Below are positions 3,801 through 64,000 of a stretch of 64,000 bases of DNA, piece by piece (the first letter of the stretch is position 1; every line of letters starts with the position of its first letter). The DNA comes from Trissonchulus latispiculum. Its lineage: Eukaryota > Nematoda > Enoplea > Enoplida > Ironidae. The stretch is from assembly GCA_030248195.1 (NCBI GenBank), contig JASAND010028260.1, forward strand, positions 1-64,000. The letters are read 5' to 3'. A program made the translations under genes and the position numbers. Under the pieces are notes generated by a model. The model ran no database searches. It was not told the origin of the DNA and saw nothing but the letters and a program-made list of their open reading frames with translations.

Positions 3801-4088
3801 GCCTATCCCACCATCGGTAACGTTGGACTTGGTTTCGAACGATTCACAGGGGGCGGAATTAATCTTAACGGAGGACTACATTTCCCGGTTATTGATAAGG
3901 ATAGAGGAATGTATTATCCGTTTGACTTTGGCGGTAATCTGAAAGCCAATGGGAATAATCCCGGATTTTTGCTGGGCGCCAATGCTAGTCCAATTAATCC
4001 GAGCAGACTTGGGATTGACTATGCATCCATTTATCCCTGCTTTTTTGGACTGTGTCAATCCAATGGACTGTTGGGCAAGAGAAAATAA
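816..4088 (+). CDS. secreted furin-site proprotein, paralogue A
   Basis: Two exons, 816-870 and 3511-4088, joined in phase 1 (donor G|GTACG, acceptor TTTAG|CC), give 210 residues. Residues 1-19 are a clear signal peptide (MILICRSLLLALLIVAQVA). Residues 20-89 form a charged, probably helical propeptide ending in RKRR at 86-89, a furin-type site. The predicted mature chain (90-210, 121 residues) starts with Gln, which could become pyroglutamate. It is rich in Gly, Pro, Tyr and Asn and has a late PCFFGLC motif whose two Cys could form a small disulfide loop. The C-terminus is basic (GKRK). The start is chosen because it opens the signal peptide downstream of a TATA box. Paralogues B and C follow on the same strand. 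I do not recognise the family; a secreted structural, defence or signalling protein is possible. Confidence 0.85.
1090..2864. mobile_element. long foldback element in intron of gene A
   Basis: The two ends are inverted copies (TTGCAAGATGCTCGAAACAT on the left, its complement at 2845-2864). The inverted arms run about 1090-2095 on the left and 2325-2864 on the right around a roughly 220-bp centre. The left arm is split by a second foldback at 1113-1595. The centre has a short tandem duplication (GGATCCGACAGACT twice, near 2277-2310). The ORFs seen on both strands at 2031-2392 come from the palindrome and are not genes. Confidence 0.75.
1113..1595. mobile_element. nested foldback element with TTAA target duplication
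   Basis: Perfect terminal inverted repeats (GGCCGAAATCTCGG and complement) extend into arms of roughly 200 bp (1113-1325 and 1388-1595). TTAA flanks both sides (1109-1112 and 1596-1599). The other arm of the host foldback, near 2840-2847, keeps the uninterrupted sequence, so it acts as an empty-site control. TTAA duplication is known for piggyBac- and Kolobok-like transposases; no transposase is present here. Confidence 0.75.
2925..2966 (-). repeat. tRNA-like SINE fragment
   Basis: On the - strand the sequence reads TGGCCTAGTGGTTAAAGCGG, which resembles a Leu/Ser tRNA A box. No matching B box follows, so I take it as a truncated tRNA-derived repeat. Confidence 0.35.
3348..3402. repeat. GC-rich GGCCGGC palindromic tract
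   Basis: Runs of CCGGC/GGCCG repeat in an otherwise AT-rich intron, about 110 bases before exon 2 of gene A. The tract is locally self-complementary and could be an insertion remnant. Confidence 0.5.
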
Positions 4089-43084: not shown

Positions 43085-45020
43085 CACAGCAAGTTTGGGT
43101 GGGTGGTTCTATGGCGAAAGTTGTTCAGTGCGATGCGGGCCTTCATTTGACTCGAAATTTGACCACTTTTGAAAATTTTAATTTTTGACCCAAAATCGCC
43201 TAAGTCCCCACCCTACCCCACCACAGGCCTCTACAGCCACTTTAGGTACGCACTTCTATGACAAAAGTTGCTCAGTTCGATGCGGGCTTTCATTTGGTAC
43301 CAAATTTGACCACTTTTGAAAATTTTTGACCCAAAATCGCCTAAGTCCCCACCCCACCCCACCACAGCCCTCTACAGCCACTTTAGGTACGCACTTCTAT
43401 GACAAAAGTTGCTCAGTTCGATGCGGGCTTTCATTTGGTACCAAATTTGACCACTTTTGAAAAATTTTAGTTTTGACCCAAAATCGCATAAGTCCCCACC
43501 CCACCCCACCACAGCCCTCTACAGCCACTTTAGGTACGCACTTCTATGACAAAAGTTGCTCAGTTCGATGCGGGCTTTCATTTGGTACCAAATTTGACCA
43601 CTTTTGAAAATTTTAATTTTTGACCCAAAATCGCCTAAGTCCCCACCCCACCCCACCACAGCCCTCTACAGCCACTTTAGGTACGCACTTCTATGACAAA
43701 AGTTGCTCAGTTCGATGCGGGCTTTCATTTGGTACCAAATTTGACCACTTTTGAAAAATTTTAGTTTTGACCCAAAATCGCCTAAGTCCCCACCGGCCAC
43801 CCCCACCCTACCACAGCACTCTACAGCCACTTTGAGCATGCAATTCTATGACAAAAGTTGTTCAGCTCACTTAGCGCTTTCATTTGGTACCAAATTTGAC
43901 CACTTTTGAAAAATCTTATTTTTGACCACTTGACCCTCTACCCGATTTACCCTTCAAACGGCAAAGTGGAGCCAGTCCAGCAAAATCGGTGGGTCGGACG
44001 GCAAAACGGACTCCGGAAATGAGCTGGACGCACCAGAAAACCCCTATGGACAAAGTTTTGAGAGGCTATGCACAGTCCTATATGGTGTTCTTGGAAGTCG
44101 GTACCGACTTGACCCTCCCGACAGCAAAGTGGAACCAGCCCAGCAAAATGGGTGGGTCGGACGGCAAAACGGACACCGGAAATGAGCTGGGCGCACCAGA
44201 AAACCCCTATGGACAAAGTTTTGAGAGGCTATGCACAGTCCTATATGGTGTTCTTGGAAGTCGGTACCGACTTGACCCTCCCGACAGCAAAGTGGAACCA
44301 GCCCAGCAATATGGGTGGGTCCGACGGCAAAACTGCTTACGGGAATCAATTCGCCGTGCCAGAAAACCTTTGTATGAAAGAATTGAGCTTTCTAAGTTGA
44401 ATACACAGCGAGAAATTTCGATTTTTAATTTTTCGAATTTTCACCATTTTTGACCGGCCACTGTGGTCGCATGGGAAGTGATAGAGAAACGAGACTTAGC
44501 TATTTGGTTAGTTCAATATATGTAGTTTCTGAATATAAAAAGAAATCGGCTCCAGCTCTTAACGTTCGAGCTGCGCAGCGACCACAAAAATGGTCACTTT
44601 TCGCTCTGAGCCGACTTTGCGGCGCCGCTGCGGCGCTGTGGCGCACCTGCGGCGCAAAAAAAGTAGCGATTCTTAAATGGCGCATGGGGTACTACCAGAC
44701 TCTATACCCCTTTAGGTCCGGCCTCCGCTGCAGATTACGTGAAAGAGGCGGAAAGTCAGGACAATACGACCATTAAATAGGAGAAACCGGAAAAAAACAT
44801 CGCCGCCATAACCGGTCCGGGGCACAACTTTTTAACGGAAAGTGATACGGGGCTGAAACTTCACACACATACTAAACTCGATGTGCTCTACAATTTGCGC
44901 ATGAAATCTGCGCAGGATCTGCGCAGGATTTTGCGCAGCTTCTGCGCAGCTTATTTTACGGTGTCTCCAGGGACTTTTGACACATATTATAGGGGTCGCT
45001 GCCGCGACCCCTATGATATA
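43085..45020. mobile_element. composite two-minisatellite element 2 (Helentron-like)
   Basis: About six ~147-bp units (43085-43930, core GCACTTCTATGACAAAAGTT), then about three ~162-bp units (43930-44370, core GACGGCAAAACGGACACCGG), a 600-bp tail with TGCGCAG repeats, and a perfect 11-bp hairpin at 44989-45014 (ATAGGGGTCGC-TGCC-GCGACCCCTAT). Helentron-derived HINE elements are known to have internal tandem repeats and a 3' hairpin; the assignment is by architecture. Confidence 0.6.
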
Positions 45021-45439
45021 ATTATTGCAAAGCCATACAAGGACAGATGCCCCACGTCCCTCGGATCTTTGGGGGTAGTGGAGCAAGTAAAATAGAATAA
45101 GCCTAGTGGGGGGGGGGTCGGCCAAAGGTCAACTTGGGGGAGGGCCGAGGGGCAGCCAAAGCTTTTGTATGTGCATTTAGAGGGAGGGCACCTCAAACAC
45201 ACCTATGACCAGAGGAGCGCGCTGTGCACAAGGTGTTGGGGGAGGGGAACCCCTCCCAAATGGACAGGTCCCCGACACCGCCCTAAACAATCTTGGCTAC
45301 CCCTATGCCCAAATATATACACCATCCTCCAATCACCCCTCCCTTCCATAATAGCAAAAAATGAGAACATTTTTTTTTCTAACTCATTTTTGCTGTTTTT
45401 AGCCGCAAAACAAATTTTTCGTATATATATATATATATA
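45021..45439. other. G/C-tract and AT-rich spacer
   Basis: G-runs at about 45108 and 45240. The right part is AT-rich and ends in a TA tract. No gene. Confidence 0.4.
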
Positions 45440-46333
45440 CAAGTAGGAAAAATGCTTGCAGTCGCATGTAAAATGCAATATGAGCTATGAGGGTCAACAT
45501 TTAAATGTGTCAAGGACAAGATTTAAAACGTCTAATATGAGCCAGCATCTAAATCGGTAAAGGACAAGATGTAACTGGCTAATATGAGCCGCTACGTTTC
45601 TCTTGGGCTCATATTGACGCTCGCAGCCGTGGTTTCAACGGCTTAACATCACGACATCATACCATTTTGCCTACAGACTTTTTACTTTTATTCCCAAGTC
45701 TTTGAACAAATCCTCACCGTTTTGCGTAATATCAATAGCTTCATGTAATGTTTGGTTACAGATGTCCTGCCTGAATCTAATTTTGCCAGCTCAAACACCG
45801 AATTTAAGGTATCTGAACACTTTATACAGCTAAAGTTCTCCCCTTTAAAGTTGAATTAGGTGGTATATATTTGGCATATACCAGTTTTGAAACACTGTAA
45901 TACTAGAAACAAATGTATAAAGCTCCTGTAAACCGGTATAGTCTTCGCTATCGGCTCAATGTACATAGCATTTATACAACAAAATACACAACTGATCTGT
46001 AAAAATTTGATGTGTGCTTATCCACGGTGTCGTACGATTGACTTTACTTATTGTATCAAGAGCACACGTATGTCAGGACAATTATGCATACGTATATGCG
46101 AATTTGAAAAGTGCAAAAGAGTTAACTCAACTTAGTATCCTCGCGTCAATATGTTATATGAGCCCAAGAGAAACGTAGCGGCTCATATTAGCCAGTTACA
46201 TCTTGTCCTTTACCGATTTAGATGCTGGCTCATATTAAACGTTTTAAATCTTGTCCTTGACACATTTAAATGTTGACCCTCATAGCTCATATTGCATTTT
46301 ACATGCGACTGCAAGGAGCATTTTTCCTACTTG
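45440..46333. mobile_element. 0.9-kb foldback element
   Basis: Inverted arms of about 180 bp start CAAGTAGGAAAAATGCT. They include repeated AATATGAGC motifs (GTAAAGGACAAGATGTAACT, CTACGTTTCTCTTGGGCTCA). The centre is unique. End motif CGCATGTAAAATGCAATATG resembles that of the 34402 element. Confidence 0.7.
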
Positions 46334-46414
46334 TCCTTCTTCCAATTTTTGGGAGCGCCGCCTTATTACGGCTCCGAAACTCCGAAAAACGCTCTTTTAG
46401 GTGGTATGACCAAT

Positions 46415-48645
46415 TCGCATGCCCAATAACCTTTGTATGCCAAATATCAGCCTTCCAGCTATCTCCAGTAGCTTGAACCAGGAACTGGTTCAACTTTGAA
46501 CCAGATGAACCAGATCTGGCCAGCCTTTGGTCGGATCCCCAAAACAACACCACCAGCAGATTCCCCATGCCCAATAACCTTTGTATGCCAAATATCAGCC
46601 TTCCAGCTATCTCCAGTAGCTTGAAAAAGGAACGGTTCAACTTTGAACCAGATCTGGCGAGCCTTGGGTCGGATCCCCAAAATAACACCACCAGTGAATT
46701 CCCCATGCCCAATAGCCTTTGTATGCCAAATACCAGCCTTCGAGCTATCTCCAGTAGCTTGAACCAGGAACTGGTTCAACTTTGAACCAGATGAACCAGA
46801 TCTGGCCAGCCATGCGTCGGATCCTCAAAATAACACCACCAGTGGATTCCCCATGTCCAATGACCTTTGTATGCCAAATATCAGCCTTCCAGCTATCTCC
46901 AGTAGCTTGAACCAGTTGAACCAGATCTGGCCAGCCATGGGTCGGATCCCCAAAATAACACCACCAGTGAATTCCCCATGCCCAATAGCCTTTGTGTGCA
47001 AAAGATCAACCTTCCAGCCAGGGGCGGATCCAGGGGGGGGGCGGGGGGGGCGGCCGCCCCCCGGCGCGATTCGAAGGTAGGAAAAATTAAGGAGAGAAAG
47101 AGGAAAAAGAGCAAAAAAACAAAAAATTTCGCGCCGTCGGCGCGAATTTTCTACTTTTTAACCGCTTATTTATTGCATTTGTAAAGAAAAAGCTTGAAAT
47201 GCATCCGATTTTTCGGAGAAAATTACCATATTTGCCTAAAAATGTCAAGAATTTTAAAAAATTTGTTCAGTTCTTCAGTATAAAAAGAATTAAAGATCCG
47301 AGTACCGATTTTATTGCAAAAACAAAAAATTTCTTCAACTTCTGGGGGGCTCCGCCCCCCAGACCCCCCGCTGGAACAATTTTGCCGCCCCCCCGTCACG
47401 AAATCCTGGATCCGCCAGTGCTTCCAGCTATCTCCAGTAGCTTGAACCAGGAACTGGTTCAACTTTGAACTAGTTTAACCAGATCTGGCCAGCCATGGGT
47501 CGGATCCCCAAAATAACACCACCAGTGAATTCCCCATGCCCAACAACCTTTGTATGCCAAATATCAGCCTTCCAGCTATCTCCAGTAGCTTGAACCAGGA
47601 ACTGGTTCAACTTTGAACCAGGGGTCGGATCCCCAAAATAACACCACCAGTGAATTCCCCATGCCCAACAACCTTTGTATGCCAAATATCAGTCTTCCAG
47701 CTATATCCAGTAGCTTGAACCAGGAACTGGTTCAACTTTGAACCTGATGAACCAGATCTGGCCAGCCTTATGTCGGATCCCCAAAATAACACCACCAGTG
47801 AATTCCCCATGCCCAATAGCCTTTGTGTGCAAAAGATCAACCTTCCAGCTATCTCCTGTAGCTTGGACCAGGAACTGGTTCAACGTTGAACCAGTTGAAC
47901 CAGGCGAGATACGGCGTCGACAGTATGCTGATCGTGTTCAGCGACCCCGATTTACTATACATGGGTACCATCCCAAGGCCGAAAAACGCTGTTTTATATG
48001 GTTTATAGACCATTTTCTTTGTTGACAGCTTGAACTTGGGGCTGGTTCACTGTTGAACCAGCTGAACCAGATGAACCAGGCGAGATACGGCGTCGGCAGT
48101 ATGCTCATCGTGTTCAGCGACCCCGATTTACTATATATGGGTACCATCCCAAGGCCGAAAAACGCTATTTTAGACGACTTTTTGACAATTTTCTGTGTTG
48201 CGACCTCGAAAAATTTCTAAGTCCAAACGTCGATTTTTCTATTTTTGACCATCTGTAAAAATCGACCCAGAGCGAAATTCGGAAATCAAACATAAACTTA
48301 GTCTGGACCATCGCCTAGATAATCAAAAATTAGTATAGAAAAATTTTTCCTATGGGCCGTTTGAAAAATCGGTGTGCGCAAAAATCGCCCTAAAAAAGTG
48401 GTCGATACAGAGAAAAAAACCCCACTTTTAAACTTGTATCAAAAAGTCGATTTTTTCAAAGTTCATTTTTTCCGGGCAAGTTTGGTATCATTCGAAAGCT
48501 CTTGGCCTGGAGATTTCAAAAATGTAAACTTTAGCTCTCAACTCCCTACCGTTAATTAGTTATGGCTGATTAGCAGTTTCCCAAATCCGCAAAGTGCCTT
48601 TATAGCTCATATTATGAGGGGCGCTCCGCGCACCCTCATGATATA
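46415..48645. mobile_element. composite two-minisatellite element 3 (Helentron-like)
   Basis: Seven or more units of about 125-150 bp (46415-47880, core CTTTGTATGCCAAATATCAG), interrupted by an hAT-like MITE. Then two ~176-bp units (47900-48175, core GTTCAGCGACCCCGATTTA), a 430-bp tail, and a hairpin at 48615-48638 preceded by CATATTAT and followed by TGATATATA. Same layout as elements 1 and 2 but with unrelated repeat units. Confidence 0.55.
47019..47420. mobile_element. hAT-like MITE with perfect 8-bp duplication
   Basis: Ends CAGGGGCGGATCCAGG and CCTGGATCCGCCAGTG. CTTCCAGC is duplicated at 47011-47018 and 47421-47428. It is inserted into a minisatellite unit, whose sequence resumes exactly after the duplication. 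A GCGCCGTCGGCGC hairpin lies inside. Confidence 0.85.
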
Positions 48646-48649
48646 TACC

Positions 48650-49105
48650 CCACGACAATTTCTCTAATTCTGGCTTTTTCCTACAAGGTGTGGGTGGTGG
48701 GGCGCCCCCCAGACTTGGCTAGGTGTGCCTTGAGAAAAACTTGTGGGTGGGGGTAGCCGCATGTGTTCACTGGAACTTTAAGCCTTGGGGGGGGGGGGGT
48801 AAATAGTGGAAGGTTGGTGGTCGTCCCAAGAAACATGATGGGGCACCCCCATCACCCCCCCCCAGAATTCGGACCTCAAAAATGTAAAAAATGGCCAAAA
48901 ACTGCAAAATTTTTCAAAATAAGGCCTGTTTTTAACTTTTTAGCACTTTTTGCACTGTTTTAAGGTTAAGTTAAAGTTTAAAGTTATTTTAAGTCAAACT
49001 TTTCGAAATAATTTTCATAAAAGGCCATTTCTGGGCCAATTTAGCTAACTTTTTGAGTCAAAAAATCGCTGGGGGGTTCGGGGCATAGGTGTATATATAT
49101 AATTG
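48650..49105. other. G/C-tract repeat fragments
   Basis: CTGGCTTTTTCCTA near 48668 is the left end of the CTGG..CCAG MITE family, followed by G-runs, but I find no matching right end. Confidence 0.4.
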
Positions 49106-49109
49106 GGGG

Positions 49110-50255
49110 AGATTTGGGAGAGGTATAGCCATGGGGGAAAAACCCACATTTTCGGATTTTGGCTGGAACTTTTTTATTATAAGGGTTATCTGAGAACTTT
49201 ATATACCATCGTAGTTGGCGTACTTAGAACTTTCTTTTAAGCCTATTTGCACTTCTCTAAGTTGTACCGTTAGAGCGGTATAATGCAAAAAGTAGCGGGG
49301 GAAAAAACCCAATGGGGGGGGGAAAAACCCAAATGGGGGGAAAATAAACCCACCCCTCACAGGTCTTAAAAATTGTTCTATCGCAATTTTGACACTTCCA
49401 GTGTAAAATTCAACCCTTTTTTAGTTAGTATGAACCAAAAAACCCGATCTAAGTAACTTTTTTTGAGATCTCATGTGCCGTTGAAAATGCTGCATCAACT
49501 GGCCAGGTTTCATAAAGTTTAACACATAAACATAGGGCAATTTTCGAAAAATGCTAAAAATGATGTAATTTGATAAAACTTATTATTCTATCGTGTAGAG
49601 AATGGTTTTTACGTAGAATTGGCTGTTAAAATCCACAATTGTACCTGTATTGGGTCCTCCAGCTGCGAAATGGCACTTTTAAGGTTTTTAGCCCCTAGCT
49701 AGCCAAAGCCAGGTAAGCAAAATTGTCCGAATCTGACCGCATAGGATGACGCAGCGTGCTCGATAGTACCGTGCTATAGTCTCTAATTGTTTCCGTGTTG
49801 AGTTGTTAAAAAAATTTTCAAAAAAATTTGGGTGGGTTTTTTTCCCCCCAAAGTGGGTTTTTTCCCCGCCACGTTTGACAATGTGCCAGACTAACGGTAC
49901 AGCGGATCGGTCTAATTTTGGCTGTGTGCAAAGAGGAAGAGTTGCCATCATTGCAGATATTTGCAAAACTTTTCTAGCCCAACCCAGTCAAAAGTTACAT
50001 CGGTCCAAACTTTTGGTAAATTTTTGGATGGTTGAACCAAAAAGTAGTTGTCATTTTCAAAATGTCATAAAATAAGTAGGAGTGAACCAAATGACTTGAT
50101 CTTTGCATAAATAGGTTAGAAAGAGTCGCGCTTCTTGCTGCTATGTTTTGGAGCTCATATCTCCAACCCATGACCCAGGAGGCGGGTGGGTTTTTTTCCC
50201 CCCAAAAAGGGGGTGGGTTTTTTTCACCCCATGGCTATAACTCCCCAGCCATTTT
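49110..50255. repeat. foldback with GGGGAAAAACCCA motifs
   Basis: TATAGCCATGGGGGAAAAAC near 49125 has its inverted copy near 50190-50240. Inside, GGGGGAAAAACCCA occurs several times (49300-49360) and inverted (49840-49870). No ORF with recognisable protein. Confidence 0.55.
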
Positions 50256-50999: not shown

Positions 51000-51300
51000 A
51001 TCCCCGGATACACAGCCCTTGAGCCAGGAGTGTCACCTCGAATGATGACTACAACCGTGGAGGAGGGGCCAGCTCCTCAATTGCAGACGCCCTACACGGT
51101 CTCCTGTTACCTTCCCACATAAGTGGTACCTATTTACCGACCAACTAAGGATGGATACCTGGGTTGGCTAGAGCCCACGGCGAACCGATATGTGCTTAGT
51201 CCCTTGCTCAAGGGGATTTGTGAAAGCCTTGTGGCAGCGGGGATTCGAACCTCGGACTATCGGATCCAAAGTCGAACGCCTTAACAACTCGGCACGGCAC
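51000..51300 (-). repeat. tRNA-derived SINE, intact copy
   Basis: On the - strand it starts with a Leu/Ser-tRNA-like head: CCGAGTTGTTAAGGCG (A box) and GGTTCGAATCCCC (B box) about 30 bases later, then a 220-bp body. Two other copies lie at 30115-30790 and 17130-17215. Confidence 0.7.
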
Positions 51301-51982
51301 AAGTCGAGTTTAAAACCCCTGTCTAATGTCAAAATTACTTCATGGTTGAATGTTTTTCGGCATTAGGAATGTCCAAAAATACGACTTTTGACATAAATTG
51401 GTTTTCCTTGCCTTAAAGTTAAGGCAAACCTTTTTCCTTTTTTATTGTCTGGGAGGTTGTCTACCTCCCAGACTACACCTGAGTCAGGTGTTGTTCCCCC
51501 TTCTCTCTCTCTTTTCTTTCTCTCTGCTAGGCCTCTTTCTTCTGGGCCTAGCAGTTGTCCTCGCGTGAACTTTTGGCCGAGGACAAGGCCAACAAGAAAA
51601 CGAAAAGGAAAATAGTAGGTAAAGCCCAAGTCATTGGATTTAGAGGGGGCTGACTCCCCTTATTAATAGAATAAATAGAAAAATAAGTAGCTAGATATAC
51701 GTAGTTAAGTACGTAGTTTATTACGATGTAAATTTTAAGTTACGGAAAATTGTATATCTTATGCAATAATTTGTCAAAGTTCCTAAATTTCACGAAGTTT
51801 TCCCTTTGGTTGCACTTATGTGTTAGCAAAAGTTTCGCAAAATTTCGCCAAGTTTTGGCCCCCAAAATATATCAAAATTGGGTCAGTTGGGGGGCAATAA
51901 ATCCAAAATCTCATTAATTTCCACCCCCAACGGCCAGATGGGTCAGTCCGCTGCAGCGCAGCACACGTAAAAGGTGGCAAGC

Positions 51983-52010
51983 TTCTAGAAGGTTCTAGAA
52001 TCTTCTAGAA
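51983..52010. promoter_or_regulatory. six-unit heat-shock element
   Basis: TTC and GAA triplets alternate six times, each separated by exactly two bases (TTCTAGAAGG, TTCTAGAATC, TTCTAGAA). This is a perfect contiguous array of the HSF-binding nGAAn unit, of the kind found in strong heat-shock promoters. Confidence 0.75.
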
Positions 52011-52116
52011 GCTTTGCCCTAGAATCAAAGAAGAAGCGAGCTCCAGGTCTCGCTAATGACCTGTCACCGAGCTGTCAGCAAAACTGTCAGCTCGGCCCAA
52101 AAATTTTATTTTCAAA

Positions 52117-52121
52117 TCAGT
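52117..52121 (+). promoter_or_regulatory. candidate TCAGT initiator
   Basis: TCAGT lies 107 bases after the heat-shock element, in TTTTCAAATCAGTGTTCG. TCAGT is the usual initiator of arthropod promoters and of many LTR retrotransposons. Weak on its own; noted because of its position. Confidence 0.3.
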
Positions 52122-55100
52122 GTTCGTTTGAGAGCAACCGAAAGCGGTTGCTTCCCCCTCCCCTTTATGCGCTCTCCAGTGCAGTTGGTACTGCATGGGG
52201 GTTAAAGCGCATTTCCCCGGTTAGGTGAAAAGCATAGGACTTTTCTGGCCTTCGGGCCAGAAAAGATTTTGAGATTTATACAACGAACACTCTCAAATTA
52301 GGGCCATATAGGTGCATTATACCTGGCCAAGAAACCGACTTGAGAAATACAAACCCTAGGATTTAAAGGCCCCTTTTTGGCCATTATTTTTATTGTAATA
52401 TTTGAGGCCTTTAGGCCAATTTTTATTCTATGTCTTTGGGGCCTTCGGGCCATTTTTTATATACCTTTTTTAAGGCCAATGGGCCATATTTTTATACGCA
52501 TTTTGGGCTGATGAGCCCCATTTTTATCAGTATTTTGGGCCTGAGGCCATATTTAAGTTATGATAGCATGCGTGGGCTTTCGAGCCACTTTTATTTCGTC
52601 TTTATTTTTTTATTATTATTATTATTTTATGGTTTTAAATAAAGGGGCAGCTCATGTAAACCCCTCCTGTTCGATGGAGGTCTTGAGAATTGTCCTTATT
52701 TATGTTTTTCTGTTTTTTCCTGCCGACACTCTCTGTATACCGAGGTTTGCTGACCTCCACCTCCAATTATTCTATTCATTTATTTTGATTATTTTTTATT
52801 TGCACTTTTTGGTCAAGCCACCATGATTTTCTACGTTTTGTTATCAAGGTCCTTTTGACCTAAAAATGGGGTTTTAAAGTAGTATACGGGATATTTAAGT
52901 GGGGACCCAACCCCTAAGTTTGAGTTAGAGGGTCCCTTTGCTACGACCCTATTTTTATTGAGTTAGTTCATAAGAATACTTACCCCACAGCCGGCAACTA
53001 GGAGTTGCCGGCCATATTGTTTTAATCTCAGGCTTTGCTAAGCCTTAAAAATTATTGTTTGTATTCTGTAATTGTTTGTCGTAGGTCGGTATCTAAAAAC
53101 AGTAGAGTATTAAAACATGAGAAGAACTTTTAAACCAATCCCTAAAAGTAATCACTTATTTTAAATTATTTTAATAATCAAGCCTTTCACGGGGAATGAC
53201 CGGCTTCCCCATTAATTAACTTAATTGTCGTCAGTAGTTTTGTGTAGTAGTAATAGTTTTGTTTAGTAATGATTGCTTGGCAGTCATTACTCACACGGCT
53301 TTCGTAAAAGTTACAAAGTTCCCAAAATTTCCAAAGTTCTGCGCTATAAACCGAGTTTTAGATGTCTAAAACTCATAACGAAGTTTTGCTCAAATTCAGT
53401 TAGTTAAGTACGTTTGAAATAATAGTTAGCAGCGTAGGTTACTTAATATTCATTAGAGTTGGTTTCCATTTAGGTTGTTTGTAATCATGTTTGTTTTTAG
53501 GATTAGCTAGATAAGTAATTACCTAAGAAATTGTATGTCTGTGTATGCATGAATTGTATGAATGGCATTGTATTGGCTTCCATGACTGTATGTGCGTTGA
53601 CTCGCGGAAACTCCTTCTGTCCGATGAAGGTTGTGAGCATCGCTGGAGTAATCAAGACTCAGATATTAAGCAGGAAAGAAGTGTATGTGTGATTTGTATG
53701 AATGATTGCATTTTTATTAATAAAAGTTTGTTCTAGTCTGAATGTTGCATAAGTGAGGTATAAGTAGGTATTAATTTAGGTATTGTGTAATTGTTGCTTG
53801 AATTGTGATTGATTAACAAATAAGATTACGTAGTTCAATACTAGTTTACTTAGGACTTTTGTAGGTACACTTTATGTAATGTAGTTGTCAATTGTAATCG
53901 AGCAAGTGACTGTCTGAATGGTCTTTGATTCTCTGTGTGCATGATTTGTATAAAGTGCCGGATATTAGAACTCCTATAGTACGCAGGAAAAGTAGTACTA
54001 AGTAATATAGTTTTAGGTTGCAAGTCTTGTATGCATATCTGGAAGTGTGTGAGTATTTGGTTACGTAGGAAACCTAGGTTTAGGTACTGTTTAACAAATA
54101 TGCAAATGAGGTTAAGGCTATAGGACCTAGAGTCATGGGGACTCCGTATTGGGCCCCCATCAGCTGGAATCTGGATATCCTCGATTCGTCCGCGTAAGCC
54201 ACTCTTTGTTAAGAGTGCGGACGAATCGCAAGAACAGGAATCTATCAAATGGTCAGTTTCGTTGTCGAATCAATACTAATTAAGTTGTAGTGAATATAGT
54301 TTTTAGTTACATTTGTTGTATCTTTGTTTCTAAAGCCAGAACATACTGTTATTGCCATTTTTAATCAAATCAACGCTATCTGATGTATATTCTGCTCCTA
54401 ATAATGACCGCAATCGCGGCCTAACACCATTTCGTGTCGGTGTTCACGTCCAAAGGCAAAACAAATCAAACTCCTTTACGTAAAGGTCAGCAAGGTTGGA
54501 AAATCAACCTTGCTCATTTATGTTCAATACGAAGTTATCCATGATAGTTATCCACAAATGGCAATAATCAGTTTCAACATTCGGACAACCCTAACTAATA
54601 TTAGGCAATAGTTGATAATATACCTGAAATAAGCAAATCAACCACTAGTTACGTAAGTATTATGGATAGGGCATCAGAACCATCTTCTAATAAAGGCTAA
54701 AATCGCCAGTTTTGTGAAATTGTCTAATTTTCAACGTTTAACACTCATAACAAAGGGAGTTGTTACCTTCCTTTAGTAGAACCCAATAGAGAACAGAAGT
54801 TCTACACTAAATCATTACGTTTCTAGTAAATTTATGCATTAACTCTCTTTTAACTACTAATATTTGTTAAGAGCAGGAAGTTGTTACCTTCCTCACTTAA
54901 ACTCGCGAACTTAAAAGTTCTACATTCAAGTATTGTGTCCTGGTCAAATTCACGTGTAAACTGCTCTCTAACTAAGTAACTCTTATCAAAAATAGGAAGT
55001 TGTTACCTTCCTTGCTAAGGACCCGGAAAACACAAGGTCCTAAACTTGACCACCTCAACCAAATTAACGTTTCTTGTGTTGGCCGAATAAACGGAAACCT

Positions 55101-57470
55101 ATCCGCTCTTAAAGGACCCAAAAGTGTATCAAATTCGAGTAATAGGTTTTAATCGTGCAGAAACAGACTGTACGAAGAGAAATCAAGTTGAAATCACAAT
55201 TTCACATCGAAGGCACAATTTCTTGCACAAGAACGCAAGAAATTGTCTTGAAAACGATCGTTTTACTTAAAGCCAATTTTAAATGTCGTGATCTTGCTCA
55301 AACCATCAGAACTTGTGTTAATCCGTTTGAATCACAAGCTTTCACAACAATTTCGATTTGTACGAGTTTATTTCAAGTTCAGAAAGCCAAAGTGTGAGTA
55401 ATGGTTGCTGGGTTCGAATCCCGCACCTATAACTTGTATTAATGGGTTTTAACCCATTTGATTCAGGTGCGGTGAAGTCCCGTCCTGTCTGATCTACTGT
55501 CTGAACGTCAGTCAATTTGGACCACGGTGTCGATTCAGTCTTTGCCATTGATTAGTGAGATAGATTGTCCGGATCAGGACCCAAGTGTTGGAAGCTTAAT
55601 TTGAACTGTATTGGATCGGAATCAGATTCTCGAAGGTACATTGGCAATCGAGTATTCGGAACTGATAGCTAAGACAGGGACGATCTTTGGACAGCACCAG
55701 AGTCTACAGTGGGAAACTCAAAACCTAACGACGTGAATTCAAAAACTGGTTTCTATCCTAATTACAAACTGATTCTTTACATTTCAAATATCAAAAGATG
55801 AATCTTTTCGAGCTCATCGTTCGTCTCATTGAAGGGGTTGTTACCCCCTGTCCCTGGGCCTAATCTATTCTGTCTTCTTCAAGATAATCAGGATTAGAGA
55901 ATTTAAAGAAGAGATTAATCTAAAAATAACCTGTACTAACACCCATAAACGGACCAGGAATTCCCCCAACCGGACCCCCCTTGTGTTTGACCCTTGGCAA
56001 CCGTATAGCAACCGAAAGTGCTATTGTTACTAGCATTTCGGGCTCACCCAAAGACCGGAAACTTTGCACTACTAACCCCCGTTAATTTAGTTAATTTAGA
56101 TTGTCTAGTAAGCTTATCTTATTGATATTGTTTTGTCCTTTAGTAAGGAGGACGGTAGAAGAGTTATAATCTTATCACACGAACACAAGCATATAGGGAT
56201 TGCACGATAGAGTTTGGTAATAGGTTAATAACTTGCTAGTCAGTTAGTCAAGAAAGGGAAGAAAGAGGAATAGAGTAGAATTGAGTTTAGCCATCGGAAC
56301 CTTGTCCCTAACAACAACAATTAGTCATCTGGGTATATTAGATACTGGCAACTCTGGCAAACTATTATTGTTTGTCTAATTGTTTATACAGTATACAGTT
56401 TGTGATTAGTAACCTGTTTTATCGTTTATACACACTATAATAATAATCCTGTTCCCTGTTTGTTATCATAATTATTATTGCCCATATCACCATAGCTATT
56501 GTCATTAAACTGTTGTGTCCTACTACTGCATCTAGTGACTAGGACATAAGGATCGATCAAGATCTGGATTCACAGTCCCTGTACAAGTAAGTGTTTAAAT
56601 TGAACCCTTGGTCCCGACAAAGACATCATCATCATCGTGCTAGAATCTTGATTTGGCAATCAAGATTCTCAATCAGTGTTCTTTGATACAGACCTGATTC
56701 ACCTATCCAGAAACGGCAAGTGTCGACCCCGCTTGCCACTGATATCCCTTGGATCCCTATCCTCATCAAACGAACTCACATCTAGACCCCATCCAGGTTG
56801 ACCGCAAGGAATCTTTGGTTCTGGACAAATCACCTTCCGAAGATCCTGTGCCTAAGTTTATCCTCACCGATAAACGCGTCAGCCTTCCGTGTACTCGAAG
56901 TGGTTGCTATCCCAAGAGTCAGTAGTTGTGACAGGCTGCAGCGGAATTTGGAATCCCAATCCTACCCACTTCATTACAGTAGGATGCAGGTAAAATATTC
57001 AAAGATTAAGGGAAAACAATTTTTCCGTCATTCTTAGAAATATTAAACACTTTTCAATTTGCTCTGACAAAAAGTTTAGACTATACAATTACAGCTATAT
57101 ATTTCTTTCAGAATCTTTGTGGGAATACAACATACAAATTTCTTAAGCCCGGTTCACACTGATCCTGTGATGGCTGGTGACTGGTTAATGGTTCCACCGA
57201 CCCCATATGACCAACTGGACTGGTTTCTGGAATTGATGACATGAAATTCCGGCCATCAGCATGAACTCGATGACCGGCTCGTCTACCACGAATCGATGGC
57301 CGCAAGATATTTGGTCGTCTGCTCACCGGTGATCAGGTATATGATGGGGTTGACCAAAGGCGGTCGCCATAGCTGGTTATTCACGACCGTCGCGTTTACA
57401 TTGATCACAACTGACCCTTCTGGACGTTGGGTTGAACCCATCTGTCCACTGTAATAGTCCATTGTGAGGG

Positions 57471-58302
57471 CTAAGGTACAATAACTTGTCGTTCCATTCC
57501 AGAATTCGTTGCTACCGGGGTGATGACACCCGTGGGACTCCTTGATGGACCTGGCAGATAAGACGGTGAAGCCAAAGCCTGGGAAACAACATCATATGAC
57601 GGATCCCAAGACAGCCTATGCTGTGCTCCCGAATCCATTGCCAAATTGTTTAGTGCCGCCGTTCCAAGTGAGAACTCGTGGTCCAAATCTATTCCGAAAT
57701 TCTGGAACACTGACTGAACCAGGTCATTCAAAGGTGGCAATCCAGGCATCGCCGCAACCCCAGGGCCATCATATCATCATTAGATTCTTGTAGAGCCTGC
57801 CCATGGTCTCGGGACAAACCCATATCCATGCGCTCCTCAAGACCGATGACGGTCCGATCCCCGGGACTCGACTCAGAACTCTGAGGAGAGTCCCTCTGAT
57901 CCAACCCAACCGCATTCCAGTCCAAAGTCCTGATGGTTTCATCATGAAACCTCCTAGTTTGAGCTGCTGAACCACCAGGCTGGTTGTAATCCAATGATAC
58001 CATGCTTGAGGCCGCTGTTACAAAGACAGAGTCCGACGACAGACCGTTTCCAGGCAATTCAGGTTCAGACAAGTCGGTCAAAGAACCAGATTTTGGTGGG
58101 TCCAGAGATGGGGCGCTGCTTTTCCGAGCAGTCCCTGATGTCCAGCCACTCTTTTTCTTTTTGCCTCCGCTAGTGAGGCGGAATTAGACCGGGGGCGCAT
58201 CCCTCGCACCGGATCACAGTCGAACGACCTAGAACTCGCTCTCGACGTGTAAGGCAGACATCCCATACAGTCCAATTGAGAGCTTCCACAGTGACCCAAC
58301 AC
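57471..58302 (-). pseudogene. frame-disrupted Ser/Pro-rich coding-like region
   Basis: Three overlapping open frames on the - strand (58302-58078, 58081-57728, 57749-57471) read on from one another if one shifts frame near 58150-58165 (an A/T-run) and near 57745. The product would be about 275 residues, Ser/Pro/Asp-rich, with a basic AKRK-type stretch and no domain that I recognise. It may be a broken host gene, a retroelement protein, or a real exon with two assembly indels. Confidence 0.35.
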
Positions 58303-58309
58303 ATCATAT

Positions 58310-59540
58310 GATTAGTGACGTAGTTCTTTCTCTTTCAAGCGTTGACTAGAGCGCTTCATATCCATAGAGTTGAACTTTCTTTCCAAATCTAAAAGGTCTT
58401 TTTGAACAGCAATTAGATATACAACTCAAAATTTTCCTAGGTACCCGAGAAAAAATACGGTTATGTACGTATATAAAAGGTACTCGATAATATAATAAAT
58501 TGGTGTCAATTAAAGCAGATGACTGCTATTTTTGTCACCTGAAAAGGAAGCAATTACCAAAATTAACCTAAAATAAATGCGACTAGACAAACAAAATCAC
58601 AAAATACAAACAAAATTGTCACAATAAAATTATTTGTATATTAGGTACGAACTTTGGAAAAAATCTCCTAACTCAAATCCCAAAAATAGCTCTAAATTTA
58701 CTCACCCCAGAAATAAATGCTTTTTAGAGCCTAAACTGAGGGAGTAAACAGCCACACAATTATATACGTATACAAAACGCACAAACCCCAGAGAAAAAAG
58801 TTTTCAGATTTTTGACCCTAGGGGGGTTTTACCGTCCTAAGAAAAATAGAAATTAGTGCGCTGAACACAAAGAACTACGGTAGGAACCCCAACGAAACTA
58901 AACAAAAATTGAAGAAAAATTTGCAAAATTTTACGAAGGGGTTCAGGCAAGAAAATCCCTGAGCTCCTGGCAGCCTAATGTAGCGGGGGTAGTAATTTTT
59001 CCTACCTACTAGCACCGTTACCACACCCAGATGTAGCGGGTGCGGAGACCGTAGCACAGATGGACAACTAACCGACCACAGAAAACGATCGGGACAGCCT
59101 CGCCAGACAATAAACCGGGTAAGCAGACCTGTTCTAAGTGAAAAGATGACTCTCCACACTCACTAATAATGATTGGAACGTCTACCTACCTAGCAGGAGC
59201 TCATTGGACTCAAACCCAAATAAATACTTAGATAACAACAATTTAAGAACAGAAGAACAACAAGTATTATTAATATAAAGATGTTATAAAGAACAATGGG
59301 CTAAGCCCTGAGATATTCAATGCACTCACACACAATAAAAATACTTACAATACACGGGACTCACCAACGTACCAGTAGCTCCTGGGGAGAGCTACGCAGA
59401 GCCAAAATATACACGGGGGAATTTACACCGCAAATGGGGGGAATGTGATAGATAAATAGCACGCGCACGTAACGGTAGAAAAACACTAGAATGAAGGCGG
59501 GAAGCGAGTGTTGGGTTGAACCCTCCCACGAGCGCCCCCT
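58310..59540. other. AT-rich spacer
   Basis: No exon, RNA gene or clear repeat seen. Confidence 0.4.
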
Positions 59541-59557
59541 AGTGAAAGTTTCCCCAA

Positions 59558-59630
59558 TCACGTAGCTCCCCCGCATAGCAAGGCTGTAACCCACCCAATC
59601 CCAAACATACACGGTGGGGGAGCTACGTGA
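59558..59630. repeat. inverted repeat, 15-bp stem
   Basis: TCACGTAGCTCCCCC at 59558-59572 and its exact complement at 59616-59630, with a 43-base loop. Confidence 0.6.
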
Positions 59631-60236
59631 CTTGCAAAGTAAGCCCAGCCCCCAAGTGATGATGTTATGCTAAGCCTGACGGGTAGCTAACTTAGCTACA
59701 GCCGCCAGCAACGGAAAGATTGACCATGCGTCACCTTAATCCGATCCTGTAAGTGGTATACAGTTCAGAGTAATAGTCATAGGCAGTGATCCTGCAAGTA
59801 ATCCGTGCCTATAGGGGGCAGAGTAAATCAAACGACCCCAAAGAGAAGAGGAAGAAGCAGAGTTCAGTGCAGGCTTGCTAACCCATCGATATCTCATCTG
59901 CAAGGAGACTCTAATTGTAAATTCAGAGTCTACACGTGGCGTATCTTGTCTCCTGTAAGTGAACAGATACAGTAAATGTCGACTCCGCTCATTTCTGCTC
60001 ACTCCTCCCATTAAAACGAACTGACACCAACCAACCTCACTCAGGTGCAATCAGGATTGCTAATTTTGGCACACCACCTTTCAGTGATTCGAAATCTAAG
60101 CTTGCTGCCTAATCCGACGCTGACCTTCCGTGTAATTGGAGATCTTGAAAGATTACTGTGGCGAAGCCGAGTTTAGCGCGAAGGTAAACTGAGTTAAATC
60201 TAACTAATTTATTAAAAACAGTTTATATTAAATAAA

Positions 60237-60682
60237 ACCTCTAACGAGAGGTACTAAAATAAGTCCCTTAGCGAAGGGAAGTCCTCTAGTGACGTGAGTG
60301 AGGCAGGCATAACGATCAGTTAGTATGAGATAACTTCAGGAATCTAGTAGTTCATACTTTAAAATAGGCTGCCAAAAGGAATACAAGAACGCTGCCGCTA
60401 CGTTAAAGAATGGGTAGTCTAACTGATTAACAAAAGTTGAAGAAATGTTATTTTAAAAGGTTGTTGAAAGTAGGTTATAAAGTTATTGAAGTAGAAAACT
60501 TTTAAAACAAAAAAGGAGTGTTCACCCGGATTCGTTTATGGGTGAACTATTTTAATGGAATTAAAGTTTAAAGGCGTTTAAAAGAATATTTAAAGACGTT
60601 TAAAAGAATAAAGAATTGACGTCACACAGTGACGTCACACTGTTACACTTGCCTCCTCCAACAAAGGCGTGGACCCCACGCC
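60237..60682. other. second block of short hairpins
   Basis: ACCTCT-AACG-AGAGGT (60237-60252), TCCCTT-AGCG-AAGGGA (60264-60279), GTTCACCC...GGGTGAAC (60520-60547) and GGCGTGG...CCACGCC (60666-60682). Same style as 51.4-56.7 kb. The two blocks may be parts of one unit split by 57-60 kb. Confidence 0.5.
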
Positions 60683-60699
60683 ACACAGACAATAAAATC

Positions 60700-61560
60700 A
60701 TGAACAGTATACATTAAGTCATTAGGAAGTAAAGTCAAAGAATGGGCATAATGTCAAGTTTTGCAGTTGTTCTACTTCTGCAGCAAGTTACTAGTCCAGG
60801 AAGAGGGCTACACATCATCATCCAATGTCTACATAAAGTTTCTTCCCAGTGACCAGTTTGACCAATATATACCGCCTGACGGGAGGTCAGTTCCATTTAA
60901 CAGAATTTGAGGTCCAATAAAAATTTTGCTTCAACCTGGAAAGGAAGGACCTTTAATTTTGGAGACACACCATAGGACCTCGAACGTAGGGTGTTAGGGA
61001 GACCATGACGCCTCTGGTAAGGGAACCCTCTGTGAATCCCAGGGCTGAAACATTTTAGCAGTTTCTATTTGGTCACCAAAGGTACCCAAGGGCCCACGTT
61101 AACCTTAGGTATTTAACACCCAAGGAAGGACTTCCAGGGTCCGAGGACGCTGGTCTCCTTTAGGGCATTAGCCAAAACCAGGAAGGAATGAGCCAAACCC
61201 AAAAGGTAGTCTCTTGAACCAAGTCCAAGGTCCGGGTCCAGCCATTATGCAGACAATAATTAAAAGTGAGTCCAACTGACACAACATCCCATAGGGGTCG
61301 ACAATAGGCATGTACATGTACTCGATTCGGCTAACAATAAATTGTACAATTTCCTATCTATACATCGTTAAAATTAGAATGTCAAAACTGTACATATATG
61401 GAAGCGGTGACGCCATTAAGTGGGCTAATTACTCGCATGCCAGATAAATTTAATTGTTAGGAAGCAGGAAAACTGAGGATTAGCAAACGCAGTAAAATAC
61501 AGTTGCGTACGAAGCAAGCAAATGGCATCAATGTGAATATCTGTGAGTCACGCGAGCGCT
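60700..61560. other. region downstream of gag ORF
   Basis: Non-coding sequence with small palindromes (TTTGGTCACCAAA). If the LTR element is full length, pol or 3' LTR sequence should begin here, but I see no pol motifs. Confidence 0.4.
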
Positions 61561-61568
61561 GGACACCA

Positions 61569-63965
61569 TCAAAGTCGAATTCCTGCAGCATATAGCCCCA
61601 TCATATAGCCCCGGCCAACCAACGTGTTCGTAGCACGTAGCCTCTGTACAGCAGCATAATTTGTTACAAAGGTTAAGTGATGTCCCAGCAAATACTGGCG
61701 AAAGAAAATGTTTTGAACTGTCATCTCCAACGAAACTAAAGTCTTCCCTTGTGAGCTTAGCCCTTCTGAATAATCACTCTTCGTCACAGAGGGTTGGAAA
61801 AAGTTGTCGTCTGTATGAACCAAGCTTTCTTTTTCCGCACGAAATGGCATTTCCGTGTTGCGACAGACAACCGACCATCCAAAATTGCATTGGCTCTCAT
61901 ACCGTTTGACAACCGTTCGCGTTGATCCATGTTCGCAGTTATGCCTCTCTATACTACTGCAACAGCCGCTTACGCCAACAGACACATTTAAATCATAGTT
62001 GTCCACCTTCCGATGAGTGTCCATATGATAGTTCATTGCAGCTCTGATTGGAGTCACTGGTGACTGAGAATCCGGTTCTGCTTCCAGCTGCCACTTCTGT
62101 TTTGTTAGATGCCAGAATGACGTGCAGTTATTAAAAACGCACGAATTTAGGTGATCCGATTCTGCCAATGCTTTGTTGCCTTGAATGCCAACAACCGTGA
62201 TTGTGAGCAGGAAGAAAAGTATTAAGGTAATCCAGTGAAAACTGAAACTCTTCGGACAACCTCCTGCTGAAGGCGTCGCATGACGAGCTTTCCTCTGGCG
62301 CTCTCGTCTTTGCTTCCTTTTCTTAGAGTGACATACCGACATCGACCAGTCCGATGATCGATTGCAACTAACTGCAGACACTGGTGTCGGCGATGGAAGT
62401 TCACGGAGCTGTGCTGCAAGCCGCTGATTCTGTTCCATAAGCAGTTCATTAGTTTCCTGTTGACGCGCTAGTTCTCGTTGTAGTTCGTCCAATTGAGCTT
62501 GTCTCTCGACGCTAACAGCCCTTTCAGGCCGTACATTCAGTGAATTTACTGGAGCCTCATGACTGCGAAATTGTGATCTCTGTGCAACTGGAAACTGATG
62601 TCTCTGTTGTGATTGCATCGTAGGATGCTGCTGGTGTGACGATAACTGTGATTGCCTCTGCCTGCAGGAAGCAGCGTAATGACCAGGTCTTCCGCAGTTG
62701 TGGCAGATCGGACGACTGTCAGTAGTATGCTGTCGTCTTGGTGGTCTGGAATTAAACTCAGAGTACTGACCATGATTTCGTCTCGACAGTTGGTTTGGGT
62801 CAGAGGTACTTGATGGGCTGATACTTGCAACTTGTCGTGTTAATTCCTTGATCAGCTCGTTAAGTTGTTCGATGCTACGCTGGAGCTGATTAGACGGCAC
62901 CATTTGATCTGGAGCTGGGATAGAAGAAATCGGAGTGGGCAAAGCCACCGAATTCACCGACAAGGAAGAAGGGGATGGCCACATAGCTGACATCGTCTGG
63001 GGCCGAATGGCTTCTAGGGCTTCCAATTGCTGAGCCTTCCGGACCGCATCCTGAAAATTGGCTGGGCTCAACGGAAAAAGAGCCCTCTGATAGTAGGGAT
63101 GCAAGTTCTGAATGAAACTCCGATAGAGGAGAGTTTCACGGGCGTCCGGGACCATGTCAGGATACCCATCGTCAGCCAATTGCTGAAGCTGCCAGGCAAA
63201 ATCGGCAACTGATTCATTGGGTCTCTGCTGTCTTGAAGCAAGGCCCAAGCCAGCAATGAGTTCCGCTTCTTTCCTTTCCAGTAACGACTGGAGTGCCGTC
63301 TTTAATTGACCGTAGTCAGCTTTTACGGCTGCATCCAATTCCATATACTTCTTCCTCGCTTGATCACGCAGGTACACCGGAATCATTTTCGCCTTCTGAC
63401 CGTCGTCATAACCTTTGGCTTCGGCCATGAATTCGAAAATTATGAACCAGTCCTTTATGTTCTCCCCGGGTTTTCCGGAGAAAATGGACACTGCATCTTT
63501 GGGGAGGGAAACACTTCCGTTGGCTCCTGGCATGTTGGGAGGTCCTTGCTGTGTTAAACGTCCTACCGTGGTTTGGATCTGCTGAATCTGCTGAATAGGA
63601 TCTGCTTGCTGTAGAGCAGTTAGAAAGGCAGGATTGGTAGCCTGAACGTCTGTTTGAAGTTGCTGTATGGTACGGTCGACACTGTCGGAGTGGGCTGTAA
63701 AGCCTGCCTTAAGTCCCGATAGCTGAGCAGCTAGATCGTCTAGGTGCTGGTTGAGACTTTGAAGATATGTCCGGTCTTGCTGAATTTGGAGACTCTGATT
63801 GTTAAGGGCTTGCTGGAGCTCGTCTGTCTTCTGAGATAAATGGGCAGCAAATGCTCGGCTTGGGCTTTTCGATTTCGATCGACCTGAGGTACGGGCTGGA
63901 TTTTGTTGGCTCGACTGAGCGTCAGTAGTTCCGCCAATTACTGGTAGAGGCGGACGTTCGGACAT
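61569..63965 (-). CDS. Ty3/gypsy-type Gag fused to membrane and RNase-H-like tail
   Basis: An uninterrupted 798-codon frame. Residues 1-40 are basic and disordered; 45-135 form a Gln-rich coiled coil; about 160-320 are a retrotransposon capsid domain (FSGKPGENIKDWF, NESVADFAWQLQQLADDGYP). A CCHC knuckle lies at 421-434 (C-x2-C-x4-H-x4-C). A second coiled coil spans 485-520 and a basic patch 548-562. Then come an unexpected hydrophobic segment (576-594), a Cys-rich stretch with N-glycosylation motifs, and residues about 750-780 (FRQYLLGHHLTFVTNYAAV) that resemble the RNase H start of a pol. Protease, reverse transcriptase and integrase are absent. ATG lies 18 bases after the primer-binding site. 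It looks like a non-autonomous derivative made by internal deletion. Confidence 0.75.
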   Translation of the reverse strand: MSERPPLPVIGGTTDAQSSQQNPARTSGRSKSKSPSRAFAAHLSQKTDELQQALNNQSLQIQQDRTYLQSLNQHLDDLAAQLSGLKAGFTAHSDSVDRTIQQLQTDVQATNPAFLTALQQADPIQQIQQIQTTVGRLTQQGPPNMPGANGSVSLPKDAVSIFSGKPGENIKDWFIIFEFMAEAKGYDDGQKAKMIPVYLRDQARKKYMELDAAVKADYGQLKTALQSLLERKEAELIAGLGLASRQQRPNESVADFAWQLQQLADDGYPDMVPDARETLLYRSFIQNLHPYYQRALFPLSPANFQDAVRKAQQLEALEAIRPQTMSAMWPSPSSLSVNSVALPTPISSIPAPDQMVPSNQLQRSIEQLNELIKELTRQVASISPSSTSDPNQLSRRNHGQYSEFNSRPPRRQHTTDSRPICHNCGRPGHYAASCRQRQSQLSSHQQHPTMQSQQRHQFPVAQRSQFRSHEAPVNSLNVRPERAVSVERQAQLDELQRELARQQETNELLMEQNQRLAAQLRELPSPTPVSAVSCNRSSDWSMSVCHSKKRKQRRERQRKARHATPSAGGCPKSFSFHWITLILFFLLTITVVGIQGNKALAESDHLNSCVFNNCTSFWHLTKQKWQLEAEPDSQSPVTPIRAAMNYHMDTHRKVDNYDLNVSVGVSGCCSSIERHNCEHGSTRTVVKRYESQCNFGWSVVCRNTEMPFRAEKESLVHTDDNFFQPSVTKSDYSEGLSSQGKTLVSLEMTVQNIFFRQYLLGHHLTFVTNYAAVQRLRATNTLVGRGYMMGLYAAGIRL

Positions 63966-63982
63966 GCAGTGGAATGCTTTTT

Positions 63983-64000
63983 ATCCCACCGCTGCCACCA
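63983..64000 (-). other. tRNA-Leu primer-binding site
   Basis: On the - strand the window begins TGGTGGCAGCGGTGGGAT, 18 bases complementary to the 3' end of a metazoan leucine tRNA including CCA. A primer-binding site directly follows the 5' LTR, so that LTR should lie just beyond the right edge. Confidence 0.7.

Follow-up and report, generated by a model that had tools for sequence, protein, structure and literature searches.

The 64,000-nucleotide stretch at the start of contig JASAND010028260.1 of the nematode Trissonchulus latispiculum (assembly GCA_030248195.1; the whole stretch is referred to as the window) contains an array of short hairpins at positions 51408-56669. The array is real, and is neither an artefact nor a stand-alone oddity. 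It is, almost beyond doubt, the body of an unusually long (~6.5 kb) long terminal repeat (LTR) of a giant retroelement. The window holds one copy of this LTR (51396-56978), located on the forward (+) strand, which is also the strand of all its hairpins described below.

The array contains 12 perfect stems of at least 8 bp (loops of 3-12), as compared to a mean of 0.98 and a maximum of 4 in 60 block-wise dinucleotide shuffles. For perfect stems of at least 10 bp (loops of up to 14), there are 8 in the array, against a mean of 0.10 and a maximum of 1 in the same shuffles. A separate run with 15 shuffles agrees (12 vs 1.27 and 8 vs 0, respectively). The excess over dinucleotide-shuffled controls that a preliminary description of this DNA had proposed is therefore confirmed. 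That description also counted dozens of hairpins. In one copy 39 stem-loops pass a loose score, but the word is generous, as 8 of the 39 vary in the way expected of chance hairpins, with stem divergence of 0.13-0.27 among copies. Six of these 8 have the lowest scores (15-16.5) and the other two, at 54135 and 55153, score 18.5; several low-scoring stem-loops are nevertheless conserved among copies. The neighboring DNA, thought to lack hairpins, is indeed poorer in them overall (0.77 stems per kb in the remaining window, 2.3 per kb in the array). However, of the equally long stretches left of the array, the richest (44751-50012, 5262 bp) has 14 stems (at least 8 bp, loop up to 12). Tandem repeats of 125 and 148 bp are located in the same area. 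The density is uneven within the array as well, with 8 of 14 stems (loops of up to 14) in 51408-52407 and none in 53408-54407. An rRNA or tRNA cluster is disfavored as the identity of the array, since Rfam finds no family at gathering score inside it, and the internal matches are far below the gathering scores.

The giant LTR and its coding part

The source assembly (733.8 Mb, 21732 contigs) contains at least 20 places, the window included, that span the array from query position 1 or 12 through 5262 with 82-100% identity, in addition to partial copies. This count is a lower bound, with 31 of the 3477 candidates scored. The search for homologous copies that had been suggested is thus positive. 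The array is not a simple repeat internally, as first noted, but in its entirety it is a dispersed one. The complete copies reach ~0.92 kb further to the left and 0.31 kb further to the right than the array, and their lengths are 6532 bp (L002), 6515 bp (L005), 6480 bp (L006) and 6486 bp (L007). Their termini are TGTAATG...CATTACA, with the start TGTAATGG (TGTAAGGG in L006) and the end CATTACA. The copy in the window is without ~0.92 kb at its left (5′) end. Its homology to the complete copies starts at 51395/51396, and its right end, CCCACTTCATTACA, is the 3′ end of the LTR, with CATTACA ending at 56978. The true unit is therefore wider than the originally delimited 51408-56669.

The flanks of the copies contain candidate features of an LTR element. 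A run resembling a primer binding site (PBS), TGGAGCCCCCAGTGAGG, is found ~16 nt beyond CATTACA in four copies (L002, L004, L006 and C13148), and a run resembling a polypurine tract (PPT), of the TTTGTGGAGGT type, precedes three others (L003, L005 and C3299). Seven copies without a PBS or PPT flank were read by eye at both ends (C15157, C7342, C21624, C5719, C9283, C9237 and L007), and one of them, C5719, shows a 4-bp flank identity (ATTG), a candidate target-site duplication. Long direct terminal repeats with TG...CA ends are present, as expected of an LTR retrotransposon, and the giant LTR has no long open reading frames (ORFs). The array is read as a giant LTR because of the TG...CA ends, the PBS- and PPT-like flanks, and the Gag frame downstream of the L004 LTR. 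The early suggestion of an RNA-structure region of a large retroelement was right in kind, as the giant LTR is present in many copies, adjoins a Gag ORF and has conserved stems. That of a parasite spreading as hairpins finds no support, the mobile unit being the LTR element and not single hairpins. A-rich low-complexity tracts, possibly assembly artefacts, are present at some LTR 5′ ends (L004 and L008 flanks), and 88-bp tandem repeats lie upstream of the 3′ LTR (L005 1-239 and L051 2270-2451, the continuation by eye).

The element is a Ty3/gypsy-like, Burro-like retroelement, with the start of Gag just downstream of the LTR on the same strand. The frame directly after the L004 LTR matches Retrotrans_gag (PF03732, 3.2e-8) and zf-CCHC (PF00098, 1e-4) in Pfam. 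Contig C14649 has two same-strand LTRs flanking ~14.1 kb, and this interior was read in separate pieces. By contig coordinates, the open frames of the L004 tail, L039 and L050 share one register. This shared frame contains Gag, an env-like fusion-protein region and an aspartic protease, and is followed by a NADAR ORF and then a further ORF. The env-like region matches Fusion_gly at 2.6e-5, which is below the curated cut-off (23.1 vs 29.8 bits), and F proteins in the PDB (best 0.001). The protease matches PF13975 (2.6e-9) and PF00077 (1.2e-4), and the NADAR domain (1.3e-13) lies in a separate accessory ORF (381-1994 of L046). The two LTRs of C14649 differ by 11% outside the strong stems. They may therefore not stem from one insertion, and this copy may be composite. 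Viral contigs searched for relatives of this Gag gave none.

Hairpins are generally not raised in the internal gaps between the ORFs and LTRs (3 stems of at least 7 bp vs 1.85 in shuffles), where only the UUGUUAC type described below stands out. The internal ORFs show a mild excess, with 11 stems of at least 7 bp vs 5.15 (maximum 11 in 40 shuffles) and 4 vs 1.27 for 8 bp.

Stem conservation and the UUGUUAC loop

The copies were compared in an alignment of 17, comprising 16 of the 20 full-length places and the partial copy L003; C15157, C7342, C1642 and C21624 were left out. With the hairpins of L001 as the reference, and L002 and L003 (nearly identical to L001) left out, π over the 14 other copies is 0.026 in the stems, as compared to 0.082 in the loops, 0.151 in the 15-bp flanks and 0.144 in the background. 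Four other reference copies give 0.025-0.040 for the stems and 0.136-0.142 for the background. Depending on the reference copy, the stems are 3.5-5.6 times less variable than the background, and for each of the five reference copies, 2000 random placements never give a value as low as that of the stems. A plain single case is the hairpin at 53353-53374, with a divergence of 0.01 in the stem and 0.28 in the loop.

Shared variants are 4.5 times rarer per site in the strong stems of L001 than in the background (0.071 vs 0.320, again with L002 and L003 left out), while singletons are 2 times rarer (0.126 vs 0.252). This pattern fits constraint in active lineages together with unconstrained decay after insertion. 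In the 1191 bp after the LTR, which are mostly Gag, L004 and L006 have 65 differences, 4, 9 and 52 of them at codon positions 1, 2 and 3. The corresponding numbers are 1, 4 and 21 for L002 and L004, and 5, 11 and 60 for L002 and L006. This concentration at codon position 3 indicates that the copies diverged in lineages under selection. Because the stems are conserved among copies while the loops and flanks drift, it is well supported by these comparisons that the hairpins have been kept by selection as structures.

One loop sequence recurs in the LTR, on five or six hairpins of every complete copy examined. Five hairpins of the window copy (h1 to h5) have the loop TTGTTAC, UUGUUAC in RNA, on differing stems. 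Hairpin h1 (54752-54774) has an inner stem of GGGAG/CTTCC with one sense-strand G-U pair. The inner five positions on each side are identical in all copies, whereas the outer pairs vary (whole-stem divergence 0.10). Hairpin h2 (54875-54893) lies in an invariant block, h3 is located at 54994-55012, and h5 (56016-56038) is within the longest invariant block of the alignment (39 nt, 56012-56050). The loops of these four hairpins are identical in 17 of 17 copies. In h4 (55833-55849, stem AGGGG/CCCCT), the loop is TTGTTAC in 12 copies and TTGTCAC in 5.

Hairpins of the same type are found in the gaps of the interior. Three successive ones precede the 3′ LTR (L051), with stems GATTGGG, TATCTGG and AATCGGG, and others are located before the NADAR ORF (L050) and the next ORF (L046), some of them with loops TTGTTAT or TTGATAC. 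With the relaxed loop TTGNYAY, at least 4 pairs and G-U pairs allowed, there are 14 sense and 0 antisense hairpins in the L005 LTR and the gaps (2 in gap 1, 3 in gap 2 and 3 in gap 3), and 1 of each in the ORFs; the mean in LTR shuffles is 0.32. The exact word was also examined, taking every TTGTTAC and not those chosen for pairing. Every sense word, of which there are six in the L005 LTR and five in the gaps, has at least 4 loop-adjacent pairs (G-U allowed), and the word is absent from the internal ORFs. Outside the element, 1 of the 13 words in the window is paired (position 42535), and none is with Watson-Crick pairs only.

A genome-wide pattern of two tandem loops gives 58 matches, as compared to 5 for the reversed control. 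The middle hairpin is readable on both arms in 15 places, and its pair at -7/+7 is T-A in 11, A-T in 3 and mismatched in 1 (by eye). The pattern ATNNGGTTGTTACCNNAT, one stem base short, gave 3 matches vs 4 in the control and was not used. On contig C8197, near 40823 and 54458, there are tandem TTGTTAC-loop hairpins with the stem TTCGGG/CCCGAA at a 33-bp step, apparently from another family, which hints that more than one family uses this loop. The tandem-hairpin pattern also matches 6 viral and 50 prokaryote stretches; judging from the spacings, our guess is that these are coding repeats or chance.

Possible function of the hairpins

We consider it likely that the array is a giant Burro-like LTR whose stems are selected as RNA structures and whose UUGUUAC loops are putative protein recognition sites, present repeatedly. 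By the logic of LTR elements, the LTR would be in the element transcript both as an R-U5 leader and as a U3-R tail. For this reason, and because the loop has one orientation, the hairpins would act at the RNA level. The UUGUUAC hairpins would then most likely be repeated recognition sites for one protein, either the Gag of the element or a host RNA-binding protein, and this putative binder might gather, package or control the expression of the giant RNA, a step that is less certain. A packaging role of the array is plausible. A more specific proposal is that of a new cis-acting RNA element, sense-oriented and with a fixed UUGUUAC loop on a free stem, scattered over the LTR and placed before the accessory ORFs and the 3′ LTR, that serves as a repeated address for one RNA-binding protein on an RNA of >20 kb. 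We put this forward tentatively, with somewhat less than even confidence.

Several observations weigh against this interpretation. The copy pair L040/L044 shows no stem depletion (0.077 vs 0.084). Compensatory double changes inside the LTR stems are few (3 events per threshold, in 115-166 pairs), and constraint at the sequence level could therefore play a part. Stem changes that preserve pairing through G-U are without a clear sense bias (15 vs 12, 15 vs 9 and 9 vs 6 events by threshold). A sixth UUGUUAC site, at LTR position ~400 in the part absent from the window, forms a hairpin in just three copies (L002, L004 and L005); in L006 the loop word is there but has no stem, and in L007 it is missing. 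The rest of the window contains 4 + 4 TTGNYAY hairpins on the two strands, above shuffles (mean 1.3 for one strand). With Watson-Crick pairs only, 5 of 6 exact words in the L005 LTR and 4 of 5 in the gaps reach 4 pairs. The covariation score over 14 hairpins is 0.706, as compared to 0.254 with the 3′ letters shuffled and at most 0.317 when slid, but these hairpins were chosen partly for pairing, and the score therefore overstates the inner pairs. Finally, a Pfam search of the main frames on C14649 (the L004 tail, L039, L050, two of L046 and two of L051) finds no reverse transcriptase (RT), RNase H or integrase. This is the interior of one copy, and the family may still hold all three. Because RT is unrecognised in the copy read, the element is called no more than Burro-like.

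The hairpins could instead work as DNA, as cruciforms or single-stranded folds that are used when the LTR is reverse-transcribed, integrated or recombined. The lack of a clear G-U strand bias would agree with this, as would the folding z-scores, which are low on both strands alike in the hairpin-dense parts. On the other hand, loops of the UUGUUAC type are sense-oriented, also in the internal gaps, which are not LTR, and of the eleven exact words, two (that of h1 and another in L046) depend on sense-strand G-U pairs, that of h1 being kept in 17 of 17 copies. We regard action as DNA as quite improbable. A function in translation, with the hairpins as internal ribosome entry sites or reinitiation elements for gag, the NADAR ORF and the next ORF, appears unlikely. 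It would account for the TTGNYAY hairpins in gaps 1 and 2, both upstream of accessory ORFs, and for the five hairpins that the window copy has ~0.9-2.2 kb before the 3′ end of its LTR. However, the three hairpins of gap 3 precede the 3′ LTR and no ORF, and the array lacks an Rfam family at gathering score.

It is very doubtful that the UUGUUAC loops recruit a host factor of a known type, such as a Brat-like TRIM-NHL protein or an anticodon-loop-reading enzyme. In its favor, we take the loop to have the form of the Asn anticodon loop (U33-GUU-A37). Excerpts of a report on Brat (PMC9070667) give UUGUUAA as the consensus of its NHL domain and UUGUUGU as the crystal ligand, and UUGUUA is within the loop. 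According to the same excerpts, however, Brat binds linear single-stranded motifs, and the loop variants TTGTCAC and TTGATAC break the core. An origin without function, in which template switching or gene conversion between the arms makes or repairs perfect hairpins, could explain both the perfect stems and the tandem hairpin units. This origin is hardly credible, as the copies retain their stem sequences despite the drift of loops and flanks, and the same loop is found again on stems that differ.

Several known systems resemble the element in part. Retroviral packaging leaders contain several stem-loops with short recurring loops ahead of gag. The likeness to the element here is in the multiple stem-loops and recurring loops; the difference is in the scale, hundreds of bases in the leaders as compared to kilobases. 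The Burro elements of planarians (Dugesiidae) are described, in excerpts of PMC6431247, as giant gypsy-like LTR retrotransposons of >30 kb with an env-like region in frame after gag. The element in T. latispiculum is similar in its Gag start, in-frame env-like region, very large size and extra accessory domains, but it has a NADAR ORF, no recognised RT or integrase in the copy read, and a size of ~27 kb. In these excerpts, hairpins of the Burro LTR are not mentioned, and the word 'hairpin' concerns only Helitrons. The excerpts also describe plant Ogre elements, which have extra ORFs and LTRs of up to 6.5 kb. The LTR here is at that upper length and the extra ORFs are shared, while Ogre hosts are plants, and the excerpts mention no env-like region and no hairpin arrays in Ogre. 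In a Gypsy lineage of Ectocarpus, a NADAR domain is also found in a Gypsy-type element (PMC12477816, excerpts), but the element here carries NADAR in a separate downstream ORF. The Conserved Hairpin Site of fungal GalEa Copia elements is likewise a conserved hairpin adjoining the LTR, with a less conserved loop (PMC5445492, excerpts). In comparison, that site is a single hairpin immediately following the 5′ LTR of elements that lack a PBS, whereas here the LTR itself has many hairpins and a fixed-loop family.

In limited literature text searches, no printed report of a UUGUUAC loop family was found, the letters UUGUUAC being met in one orbivirus paper and GUAACAA in none that speaks of a loop, and no report joined retrotransposon, LTR hairpins, conserved loop and packaging signal. 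The usual range of retroelement RNAs, ~10 kb, and its limits are discussed in the excerpts of PMC6431247. How RNAs from retroelements of >20 kb, beyond this range, are packaged and expressed is a standing question, for which a selected hairpin array of kilobase scale with one recurring loop offers a concrete candidate RNA element. Moreover, a seemingly empty giant LTR can hold dense conserved structure.

Other hairpins and neighboring elements

Conserved hairpins of other types are distributed along the window copy. At its left end (51408-51586) there are four successive ones with stems of 8, 11, 10 and 9 bp, for which the 16 other copies show a stem divergence of 0.01-0.03 from the window copy. 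The densest cluster is located at 51979-52265, with stems at 51979, 52035, 52067, 52132, 52174 and 52240 (stem divergence 0.00-0.03). The mean column identity of the alignment is 0.974 over the 250 bp from 51908. The segment 52386-52600 consists of tandem units of ~34 bp, each with a short hairpin of the GGCC/GGCC or GGGCT/AGCCC type followed by a T-run. Tandem Repeats Finder (TRF) gives a period of 34 for 52386-52460, and more units are seen by eye. L005 has a similar tandem array.

A second loop family, TGTYCGAT, has two members in this LTR, separated by 950 bp. The first, CCTCC-TGTTCGAT-GGAGG (52663-52680), has this loop in 15 of 17 copies and TGTTTGAT in 2. The second, CCTTC-TGTCCGAT-GAAGG (53613-53630), differs from the first on both sides of the stem. 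Its stem is present in 17 of 17 copies and its loop is variable (TGTCCGAT in 6, TGTCTGAT in 8 and others in 3).

Of two conserved hairpins in 53265-53374, one is the case at 53353-53374 described above, and the other (53265-53291) has a divergence of 0.04 in the stem and 0.08 in the loop. A 10-bp perfect hairpin at 52990-53012 has a stem divergence of 0.00. At 54182-54228, an 11-bp stem, CGATTCGTCCG/CGGACGAATCG, encloses a 7-bp hairpin (54200-54217) with an inner stem divergence of 0.01, and positions 54211-54234 are invariant. The long hairpin at 54484-54519 has 15 stem positions (0.04) and a variable loop (0.20). Two perfect hairpins of 12 bp are located at 55215-55246, where one pair is A-T in 15 copies and G-C in 2, and at 56642-56669, close to the LTR 3′ end (stem divergence 0.01, loop 0.11).

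To the right of the LTR, positions 57159-59743 belong to a dispersed repeat family of their own, which has matches on at least 37 other contigs (40 of 2987 candidates scored) and, by eye, broken coding pieces on the minus strand. Another LTR-type element occupies 60644-64000 on the minus strand. Its frame of 803 codons contains a CCHC knuckle. Reading by eye adds an LTR-like start, TGTAACAG, near 60644, and a run resembling a PBS where the window ends. The array was also considered as part of this neighboring retroelement (gag at 61569-63980, minus strand), and this was rejected, as the LTR stops at 56978 and a different repeat family lies beyond it, at 57159-59743. To the left, a tRNA-like match at 51230-51300 (minus strand) is outside the element. 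The tRNA-like segment 51134-51300 (minus strand), ~0.1 kb from the truncated LTR end, is partly repeated at 30657-30716 and is perhaps a short interspersed element.

Three related open frames at 3489-4088, 7132-7704 and 16445-16957 (+) end in or near IYPCFFGLC. Pfam has no match for the first and third of these, and protein searches with the ORF 7132-7704 and with the gag ORF 61569-63980 (minus strand) found no relatives. Long near-palindromes are located at 1109-1599, 10887-11252 and 34405-35607, with 501, 389 and 1261 aligned columns and identities of 85%, 72% and 84%, respectively; these are probably fold-back elements. A non-LTR element at 11499-15533 (+) has endonuclease and RNase H matches and contains the peptide GDVEPNPGP, which resembles a 2A skip site.

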